This document shows, piece by piece, positions 1-35,509 of a stretch of 36,500 nucleotides of DNA. Numbering within the stretch: position 1 is the first letter of the stretch; each line of letters starts with the position of its first letter. Source of the stretch: Candidatus Omnitrophota bacterium. Its GTDB lineage: Bacteria; Omnitrophota; Gorgyraeia; 2-01-FULL-45-10. The notes beneath the pieces were generated by a model that made no database searches, had not been told where the DNA came from, and saw nothing but the letters and a program-made list of their open reading frames with translations. A program made the position numbers and the translations under genes. The stretch spans positions 1-36,500 of the forward strand of contig JAUYOL010000027.1 in NCBI GenBank assembly GCA_030695905.1, read 5' to 3'.

Positions 1-19
1 GTGTGGGGGTAGATATATA

Positions 20-241
20 AACCTAAGCCTACGGTTATGGGAAGCACAATAAAAATGTTAGGTCTTTTGTGAAGAAGAAAAACGGTTAAAAAGGGCCGAG
101 TTCCGCAGGCCCCCGTTTTTCGACAGAACAAAAGACCGACCTGGAACGAAGTGAAGGGTAACATTTTTCCTGCCACCTATACATGGCTATCTTACATACT
201 TATTTAGGTGGCTTGTGCTGACCGTAACTGTAGGCTTAGGT
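20..241 (+). ncRNA. Candidate structured RNA, rod-like with a side hairpin; class unknown (6S-like shape)
   Basis: This stretch has no supportable protein gene but folds into a nested structure. Bases 21-40 pair with 222-241 (20 positions, two of them G-U on the plus strand). Bases 44-49 pair with 213-218, 51-60 with 159-168 (perfect), 61-70 with 128-137 (perfect), 77-85 with 113-121 and 93-97 with 108-112. A separate hairpin, 172-178 with 206-212, sits on the 3' side. The small internal loops 41-43/219-221 and 71-73/125-127 can form tandem G.A pairs only if the plus strand is the RNA, and the wobble pairs agree, so I favour plus. A long rod with paired ends and a hairpin on the 3' side of the middle recalls 6S RNA, but here the 5' strand has almost no open bubble. 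I see no SRP, RNase P or tmRNA signature. A palindromic DNA element is the main alternative. The promoter would lie at or before the window edge. Confidence 0.5.
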
Positions 242-274
242 ATGGATAAGACAGGGGGAAAATTTACAAACGAA

Positions 275-1078
275 TTATACTACGACTATTGAGATGTTGT
301 TGGAGTCTGCGAGGGAGATGACTTCTGACTTATTCATGAGGAATGTCTTCTTTTCCTCAAGAGCGAGGACACTGCCTCTATTATCTATTATGGCTTTCAC
401 TGTATCCGGCCCTATTAAAGGGATGTCGAATCTCGCATCCTGGTCGGGCCGCGCCATCTTTACGACGGTAAAGGAGCCGTCTACGAGTTTTCCGGCTCTT
501 TTAATGGTGTCGTCCGTACCCTCCGCGGCCTCAAGCGCGATGACCGTCTTGTCCCTTATGACCACGGTCTGGCCGATATCGAATCCCGCGAGCTTCGAGG
601 CGACTTCGCGGCCGTATTCGATATCCTCTTTTTCGGATCTGGTCGGCGCGCGTTTTGTAAGCACGCCTTTCGACGGAACCAACTCTTCGAGATAAGGCGT
701 CGGGTCTATGACCTCTATACCTACCGTCCTTATCAGATTTGCTATACCCTTCAAGATGGCATAGTCTTTTTTACCGCCGGCCTTCTTTACAACCTCTTTC
801 GATTCCTCGTCAAATTTATCGCTATTCTTAAAGAGTATCTCTTTTTTTATCTTGCCCAAAAGCGTAACCTTATTAAGCCTTTCGGTGACAGCCAGAAGCA
901 TTGCTTTCTTCAGGTCGCCCCACTCAAACCAGTGGATCTTATCGGCATATTTTGATAACTCGTCGCTGGTCACGCCTTTTAGGCCTATGGCAATTACTGT
1001 ATCGCCTTTTTTCTTGGCCGACTTTGCGAATACTATCGGAAGTTCTCCAGCGCCGGCAACTAAACCTATCCTTGCCAT
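275..1078 (-). CDS. lpxI: UDP-2,3-diacylglucosamine pyrophosphatase LpxI
   Basis: LpxI hydrolyses UDP-2,3-diacylglucosamine to lipid X and UMP in the lipid A pathway, at the cytoplasmic side of the inner membrane. The protein opens with a glycine-rich segment (ARIGLVAGAGELPI) and a following AxxxG-type fold typical of the LpxI (DUF1009) family. It also carries the family's C-terminal part with KMARPDQDARFDIPLIG and the conserved G-P-D-T. The frame is open further upstream to 1141, but that extension lies inside fabZ; the ATG at 1078 begins the conserved MARIGL segment one base after the fabZ stop at 1080, so I chose it (267 residues, normal for the family). It is the last gene of the envelope cluster here. 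LpxI is the alternative to LpxH, and no lpxB follows within the window. Confidence 0.93.
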   Translation of the reverse strand: MARIGLVAGAGELPIVFAKSAKKKGDTVIAIGLKGVTSDELSKYADKIHWFEWGDLKKAMLLAVTERLNKVTLLGKIKKEILFKNSDKFDEESKEVVKKAGGKKDYAILKGIANLIRTVGIEVIDPTPYLEELVPSKGVLTKRAPTRSEKEDIEYGREVASKLAGFDIGQTVVIRDKTVIALEAAEGTDDTIKRAGKLVDGSFTVVKMARPDQDARFDIPLIGPDTVKAIIDNRGSVLALEEKKTFLMNKSEVISLADSNNISIVVV

Positions 1079-1079
1079 A

Positions 1080-1544
1080 TTATTCGTTTGGAGTGACAAA
1101 GGCGAACATAAATTCCGCTTCCGCCACAACTTCTCCATCAACTTTTGCCACGCCGCGTGCCTTCATCATGCTCAATTTTGTCTTCAGTATATCTATCTCC
1201 ATCACCAACTGATCGCCCGGCACTACGGGCTTGCGAAACTTGGCCTCGCTTATACTCATAAAGAACGCAAGCTTTCCAAGGTTATCCTTTATGTTCAAAG
1301 CGCCCACTCCACCGGTCTGCGCCATCGCTTCTATTATGAGGACTCCCGGCATAATAGGCTTGCCCGGGAAATGCCCCTGGAAGAACGGCTCATTTATCGT
1401 AACATTCTTTATGCCCACGACCTTTTGGTCGGTGCATTCGATTATCCTATCCACCAATAAAAATGGATATCTATGAGGTATTATCTTCTGTATCATGCTT
1501 ACATCCAACACCTTACCTTTTATATCCAGTTCTTCGATTCCCAT
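1080..1544 (-). CDS. fabZ: (3R)-hydroxyacyl-ACP dehydratase FabZ
   Basis: FabZ dehydrates (3R)-hydroxyacyl-ACP to trans-2-enoyl-ACP in the fatty-acid elongation cycle and competes with LpxA/LpxD for the same hydroxyacyl-ACP pool. The hot-dog fold signature is clear: [12 protein letters not shown] near residues 22-33, the catalytic histidine in [11 protein letters not shown] (His58) and the catalytic glutamate in IIEAMAQ (Glu72). The length of 154 residues is normal. The start lies 13 bases after the lpxC stop and its stop touches lpxI, so all three are surely cotranscribed. In many bacteria (for example Bacteroidota) fabZ is fused to lpxC. Here they are separate but adjacent in the same order. 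The usual downstream partner lpxA is absent. Confidence 0.97.
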
Positions 1545-12994: not shown

Positions 12995-13068
12995 TGGTTG
13001 GGAGGTCTGGATTCGAACCAGAATACCGAGACCCAAATTCTCGTGTCCTACCGTTGAACGACCTCCCA
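12995..13068 (-). tRNA. tRNA-Gln (anticodon UUG)
   Basis: The minus strand folds into a complete cloverleaf. The 7-bp acceptor stem pairs TGGGAGG (13068-13062) with CCTCCCA (13005-12999), followed by discriminator A and an encoded CCA (12997-12995). The anticodon stem CGAGA/TCTCG closes the loop ATTTGGG, giving anticodon TTG, glutamine. The T arm TCTGG-TTCGAAT-CCAGA is canonical. A tRNA-Gln in the ispE-to-prs interval is a recurring bacterial arrangement. Here it lies between spoVG and glmU, probably cut from a joint transcript. Confidence 0.95.
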
Positions 13069-35374: not shown

Positions 35375-35391
35375 CTTAATTCTACCCTTTT

Positions 35392-35477
35392 GGCAACGCA
35401 GCCCCCCGCCGATAAATTTGTTTTTAAAAATCTGGCGGGGCTGTCGCTTTGCGCCCTCACGTTACCGTGAGTTTGCC
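35392..35477 (-). promoter_or_regulatory. Cyclic di-GMP-I (GEMM-I)-like riboswitch aptamer
   Basis: Read on the minus strand, GGCAAAC (35477-35471) begins a closing helix with GTTGCC (35397-35392). The next hairpin CTCACG-GTAA-CGTGAG has a GNRA tetraloop, then the GCGCAAAGC strand (family consensus GACGCAAAGC). A long second helix (GACAGCCCCGCC with GGCGGGGGGCTGC) has an AT-rich loop. The order, the tetraloop, GCAAAGC and the GTTGCC end are hallmarks of GEMM-I. A terminator and the secreted-protein gene follow. A promoter lies directly upstream. Ligand could be c-di-GMP or, in some variants, 3',3'-cGAMP. I could not run a covariance model. Confidence 0.72.
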
Positions 35478-35509
35478 TTTTTCAATAGGAAATCCAAACT
35501 GTCACTACA

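Follow-up and report, generated by a model that had tools for sequence, protein, structure and literature searches.

The window, that is the whole stretch of 36,500 nucleotides that was analysed, opens with 19 bases of flanking sequence, followed by a long base-paired structure on the plus strand and then by lpxI on the minus strand (Table 1). The neighbouring gene had already been named in a sequence-only reading of this DNA, and the assignment was borne out by matches of its product to two Pfam domains (LpxI_N, 9.9e-29 and LpxI_C, 5.4e-45). Elsewhere in the window, a c-di-GMP-I-GGC riboswitch (35388–35486, minus strand, 63.9 bits against a cut-off of 59) and a tRNA gene (12998–13068, minus strand) were detected.

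Positions 15–246 of the plus strand folded in RNAfold at −101.7 kcal/mol, compared with −56.3 ± 4.4 for dinucleotide shuffles (z = −10.3, with none of 200 shuffles equal), and the minus strand gave −87.7 (z = −9.9). The plus-strand fold comprises 79 pairs, four of which are G.U, arranged in the helices listed in Table 1. The sequence-only reading had described a long ordered fold of more than 60 base pairs at 20–241; its helices were recovered to within one base, and RNAfold added P8, which was absent from its list. Tandem G.A loops were also part of that description and recur among relatives of this copy, where one separates P1 from P2 and another, between P5 and P6, reads GAAGGA/GACUGA or GCUUGA/GAAAGA.

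Table 1. Features of the element copy and its neighbour gene, in window coordinates. Helices are as given by RNAfold.
Feature	Position	Strand	Basis
Whole element copy, worn	20–242	+ (folding strand)	Fold, copy comparison
P1 left arm, terminal inverted repeat; partner 222–241 (20 bp)	21–40	+	Fold; covariation between genera
P2 left arm, AGCACAA; partner 213–219	43–49	+	Fold
P3 left arm; partner 160–168	51–59	+	Covariation
P5 left arm, GGTCTTTTGT; partner 128–137	61–70	+	Covariation
Internal loop facing 122–127; tandem G.A pairs in relatives	71–76	+	Sequences of relatives
P6 left arm; partner 113–121	77–85	+	Fold, covariation
P8 left arm, GGGCC; partner 108–112 (5 bp)	93–97	+	Covariation
Conserved-core remnant (GAG/TTCCGCA)	98–107	+	Comparison with L003 and L004
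P6 right arm	113–121	+	Fold, covariation
P5 right arm, ACAAAAGACC	128–137	+	Covariation
Site of hypervariable side hairpin, within P3 junction (weak helix 139–142/156–159)	138–159	+	Copy comparison
P3 right arm	160–168	+	Fold, covariation
P4 side hairpin, GCCACC..GGTGGC (arms 172–179/205–212)	172–212	+	Fold, copy comparison
P2 right arm	213–219	+	Fold
P1 right arm	222–241	+	Fold, covariation
lpxI, neighbour gene, convergent with and outside the element	275–1141	−	Pfam

The structure is repeated in its source genome (1.82 Mb, 43 contigs), where it was found, full or partial, at about 16 places with 73–99% identity. Most of these copies sit at contig ends, which also accounts for where the window begins. 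About 44 copies were sorted into blocks and one layout is shared throughout: the P1 and P2 arms come first, then P3 and a junction that bears a hypervariable hairpin, then P5, the tandem G.A loop and P6; next are an optional hairpin rich in A/T, P8 and the core GAGGATG..hairpin..GAGTTCCGCAG, after which the return strands follow. The total length is about 220–340 bases. The side hairpin P4 is swapped (to GTAAGC..GCATAC in some relatives) or missing, and full copies within the source genome differ in their optional hairpins. The inner core is almost invariant (CGAGGAUGU..UGAG-hairpin-GAGUUCCGCAG) and its motifs are unchanged across families. In two copies from a single family (L124 and L125), outer arms of about 30 bp are near-perfectly paired with no sequence common to both.

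Compared with two of these relatives (L003 and L004), the window copy is missing 29 nt between positions 100 and 101, a point flanked by two GGGCCGAG repeats. The lost segment, GATGT..hairpin..GAG, is the innermost conserved hairpin of both relatives, hence the window holds a worn copy, and with its core hairpin lost this is probably a non-functional relic. A sister copy on contig C1 is 95% identical and has the same 29-base loss, and a covariance model built from a divergent branch (R2, see below) gave no match to the window copy.

No Rfam match was found in window positions 1–1200 even at E ≤ 10, intact copies gave no match to 6S RNA at E ≤ 1, and searches of the window and intact copies against Rfam 15 at curated cut-offs returned only unrelated riboswitch and tRNA matches. 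The element is an unlisted RNA-like family with no Rfam counterpart, in keeping with the initial description, which left its class unknown. The same description had suggested a divergent 6S RNA; this identity was excluded by the absent 6S match and by the multi-copy state, about 16 places in the source genome where one or two chromosomal genes are expected of 6S RNA.

Compensatory substitutions, proposed in the sequence-only reading as the test of its fold, proved to be numerous. An alignment of 24 sequences (A1), from which optional inserts were excised before model building, had 97% of cells paired and double changes in 14 of 43 pairs, compared with 7.7 pairs in shuffled and no more than 5 in slid versions; in one such replacement, GAAAAACGG/CCGTTTTTC becomes GAAAAAGGG/CCCCTTTTTC. 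The covariance model built from this alignment (R1) gave full-length matches in ten further families, in which the letters of P5 and P6 are wholly different yet pair, and the core is unchanged. Across 108 distinct sequences, 95.5% of cells were paired and both-sided changes occurred in 40 of the 43 modelled pairs, with a covariation score of 0.418 (0.110 shuffled, at most 0.092 slid) and 691 double-change cells (145 in shuffles), in an alignment that was fitted to the model, and so leans towards structure, and that includes a few weak opposite-strand matches. A MAFFT alignment of the divergent branch (A3) had double changes in 31 of 53 pairs, with a similar gap to slid controls. Under a tree-based null in the manner of R-scape, each of the seven significant pairs belonged to the structure, as did the entire top 20 and the three significant pairs obtained from a first, smaller set.

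The changes can be followed helix by helix. P1 covaries between genera (for example, AAGCC/GGCTT to AAAAC/GTTTT), the N of AAAATNTT in the left arm of P3 covaries as G-C, A-U or U-A, and P8 occurs as GGGCC/GGCCC, GAACC/GGTTC and GAAGC/GCTTC. P5 is near-invariant within the window's family; in other families all of its letters are replaced and pairing is retained. Furthermore, R2, which was built solely from the divergent branch, recovers members of the window's family, so that two models from separate branches retrieve each other's members. This cross-recovery, together with the covariation, establishes that the two branches are homologous and that the fold is under selection.

By DNA similarity, the element is present in 21 of 26 genomes of the window's family (20 besides the source genome) and in 0 of 32 genomes of other families. 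R1 and R2 together marked 89 of 384 Omnitrophota genomes (manual count, with the best matches, up to seven per genome, scored), and all of these belong to one class, a restriction that applies within the phylum. When all matches were counted in the window's family, carriers had between 1 and 15. A search for a 21-base core motif in 84,980 named species gave matches in Candidatus Omnitrophota records; two matches outside the phylum (L055, L078) had the second half missing and were taken as chance. An exact 29-base pattern was found in no named genome, viral, phage and plasmid sets gave no match, and the open-licence literature held no earlier description. The element is a previously unnamed family that is resident, within the phylum, in one Omnitrophota class. 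Close to one copy (L132), an FMN riboswitch lies about 770 nt from the element (591–731, minus strand).

None of 94 copies overlaps a predicted gene, and both orientations relative to neighbouring genes occur, mixed. In two Omnitrophota families the same two gene families flank the element in opposite orientations (L077 and L198), which points to separate insertions. These two and three further genomes (L083, L145 and L169) carry the element beside the same gene family, again in both orientations, and in two genera it occupies an identical place with identical orientation (L071 and L146). Empty sites were recovered within one genus (19 genomes, three copies compared): the L229 site is empty in G157 (L251), the L231 site in G093 (L262), and the L245 site in both G398 and G093 (L271, L272). 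Candidate 4-bp duplications (TTAA, ATGG and CGTA) at three sites, seen against comparators that are roughly 75–87% identical, are no more than suggestive of target duplication.

The family spreads into intergenic sites, increases in copy number within genomes and retains a single multi-helix fold. The sequence-only reading had named many near-identical copies with target duplications, a DNA element, as one of the cases that would refute it. Dispersal, empty sites and the candidate duplications agree in part with that case, but the fold is also held by compensation, hence the element is both structured and mobile and the two are not exclusive. The RNA-like fold, plus-strand preference and unknown class of that reading stand, its 6S guess does not, and it was incomplete as regards mobility.

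One alternative, a regulatory RNA gene of the cell (6S-like or of another kind) that is merely duplicated and does not move, would have an RNA-like architecture and be absent from plasmid, phage and viral sets, as found, but we consider it very improbable given up to 15 matches per genome, species-specific sites, a locus with opposite orientations and no Rfam match. Another alternative is a conventional miniature inverted-repeat transposon that moves as double-stranded DNA through a DDE transposase; the fold would then be a by-product of terminal and internal palindromes. The element does look like a MITE: it is small, has inverted repeats, contains no open reading frame, is dispersed in multiple intergenic copies, and has occupied and empty sites as well as the candidate 4-bp duplications. 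Against this, internal helices distant from the ends show covariation across families, the unpaired core that they surround is invariant, and the strands are asymmetric (see below). The P1 arms are also unlike a fixed transposase binding site, as they vary between copies and change jointly within one genome (L240–L243, L229); in G115 (L240–L243), the outer arms differ within the genome and remain complementary. A double-stranded DNA transposon is on these grounds improbable. No autonomous version with an internal gene was found among the copies, in which the two core motifs are separated by no more than 252 nt, and no autonomous relative with the same ends was seen, a decayed Y1 gene beside one copy being what was found.

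Orthologous intergenic sites without the element (L255, L259, L266–L268) hold other palindromes, such as GGGGTCAGAGCTAATTTT..AAAATTAGCTCTGACCCC or GGGGACGGTTCTATTTTT, hence these gaps look like insertion hot spots. Other modules also lie near occupied sites. A second palindromic module (AGCGGGTCCTGCC..GTCACCCGCT, about 65–230 nt) was observed 20–60 nt to the left of the element in L226–L237 and L196–L198; the two keep one order in 14 of 15 copies, drawn from three genera, and the empty site corresponding to L231 is without both element and module. In the window's family, the upstream flanks of L018, L054, L066, L068, L076 and L077 contain another nested palindromic module (AGGCGG..GGATTAGGCATCC..ATGCGAT..ATCGCAT..CAGTCGCTCC..CCGCCT) in constant order to the left of the element. 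In L028, L038, L074, L075 and L085, the upstream flank carries a third module (CTGCAGGAATTCCTTCGG..CAGTCAGTTCCTGCATTCGCTC..) ahead of the element.

The plus strand is the more stable in 66 of 68 copies, and in 59 of 68 after shuffle-based composition correction, so that the strand preference proposed from the window copy extends to its relatives. Paired sites contain 31 G.T compared with 7 A.C, nearly half of the G.T coming from one position. These strand data favour a plus strand that acts single-stranded, RNA or DNA alike. RNA tetraloops were not enriched among terminal loops, and loop types were uninformative for RNA versus single-stranded DNA. Reading transcription from gene orientation was abandoned: an early co-directional excess (19 vs 7) faded to 36 ++ and 25 −− in the 94-copy set, with no clear bias, hence the context does not imply transcription of one strand.

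Folded single-stranded DNA would leave nearly identical marks. Such an element would be a giant hairpin, exposed in replication and moved in trans by an HUH (Y1, IS200/REP-type) transposase, which likens it to an oversized REP/REPIN, and both the fold and the one-strand preference would be equally expected. Y1 transposases are common, with five in the source genome and a presence in 285 of 384 genomes, and are slightly more frequent in carriers (about 75 of 89, compared with 210 of 295 others, manual count), which makes movement of a folded single DNA strand the main rival. Furthermore, the core of one copy (L242, G115:C1) is followed, about 100 nt downstream, by a decayed transposase gene of the Y1 (IS200) type in the same orientation, and in many copies a GTAA-like tetramer before the left arm, not GTAG itself, recalls the GTAG ahead of REPs (PMC8266576). 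However, at the threshold applied Y1 genes are missing from about 14 carriers, REP recognition involves a 20–50 nt hairpin and not a core deep within a 200-nt fold, and the candidate duplications differ by site and are of a kind that Y1 elements are not known to make. We regard this explanation as possible rather than probable. A retroelement mobilised by reverse transcriptase is not supported. The source genome has no reverse transcriptase, and an RVT_1 match is missing from about 68 of 89 carriers (manual count), leaving only about a quarter with the enzyme, hence a standard retro-mechanism is unlikely.

RNA is ranked first on two grounds: invariance is greatest in a looped core that lies far inside the fold, and the peripheral hairpins surrounding this core are exchanged as whole units. 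We infer that a core in this position would be needed by neither end recognition nor target choice. On balance, we lean cautiously towards a gene-less, non-autonomous mobile element of one Omnitrophota class that requires its plus strand to fold, with RNA as the most likely form. The plus-strand fold would act in a transcript, and its core would be bound by a protein supplied in trans; this complex may drive copying of the element, or it may represent a cellular RNA that the element has spread. The outer P1 arms would mark the ends, P3–P9 would form the recognised body, and the unit would be copied into intergenic sites. A further-reaching version is tentative and on the whole unlikely, namely a bacterial mobile element of a new kind, which would move in the form of a folded RNA, or by way of one, whose conserved core binds protein or is catalytic. 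Such an element would be spread class-wide, and its order relative to other structured intergenic modules would be fixed.

In small bacterial mobile repeats, which as a rule are simple palindromes, structure is regarded as a by-product. As such jumping repeats normally conserve only simple hairpins, the element is unusual: it is a rare case of an elaborate 220–340 nt structure selected in a gene-less mobile element while its copies move between sites. It supplies an RNA-like family not yet listed, and two covariance models, a defined core and species with recent insertions provide a handle on whether bacterial mobile elements can depend on structured RNA in trans.

Among known systems, 6S RNA shares the long, mostly paired rod with internal loops, but the element differs in having no Rfam match and in being multi-copy and mobile. 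HEARO or OMEGA RNA, the guide RNA of IscB/IsrB (PMC9581776), is likewise a complex structured RNA of a mobile element, whereas our element has no match to Rfam HEARO and no gene inside any copy. REPs are 20–50 nt hairpins preceded by GTAG (PMC8266576) and associated with RAYT (TnpA-REP) transposases (PMC3116915). REPs and REPINs are, like the element, extragenic palindromes spread in trans, and in both it could be a folded single strand that is recognised; however, the element is far larger than a 20–50 nt palindrome after GTAG, has an inner core and a GTAA-like left flank, and its link to a transposase is only putative. Among stem-loop repeat families surveyed in 40 genomes, the structure held in common was often one stem-loop (PMC2267715). 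Bacterial MITEs such as ERIC, NEMIS/Correia, RUP and YPAL are about 100–200 bp and mostly simple stem-loops, and share with the element a small size, non-coding and intergenic character, inverted repeats, mobility and a long base-paired structure if transcribed (PMC2229807). The element works most like a MITE, which it resembles in size class, in having inverted ends but no genes, and in its empty sites, but it is one of 220–340 nt with several ordered helices and an invariant internal core compensated across many families.
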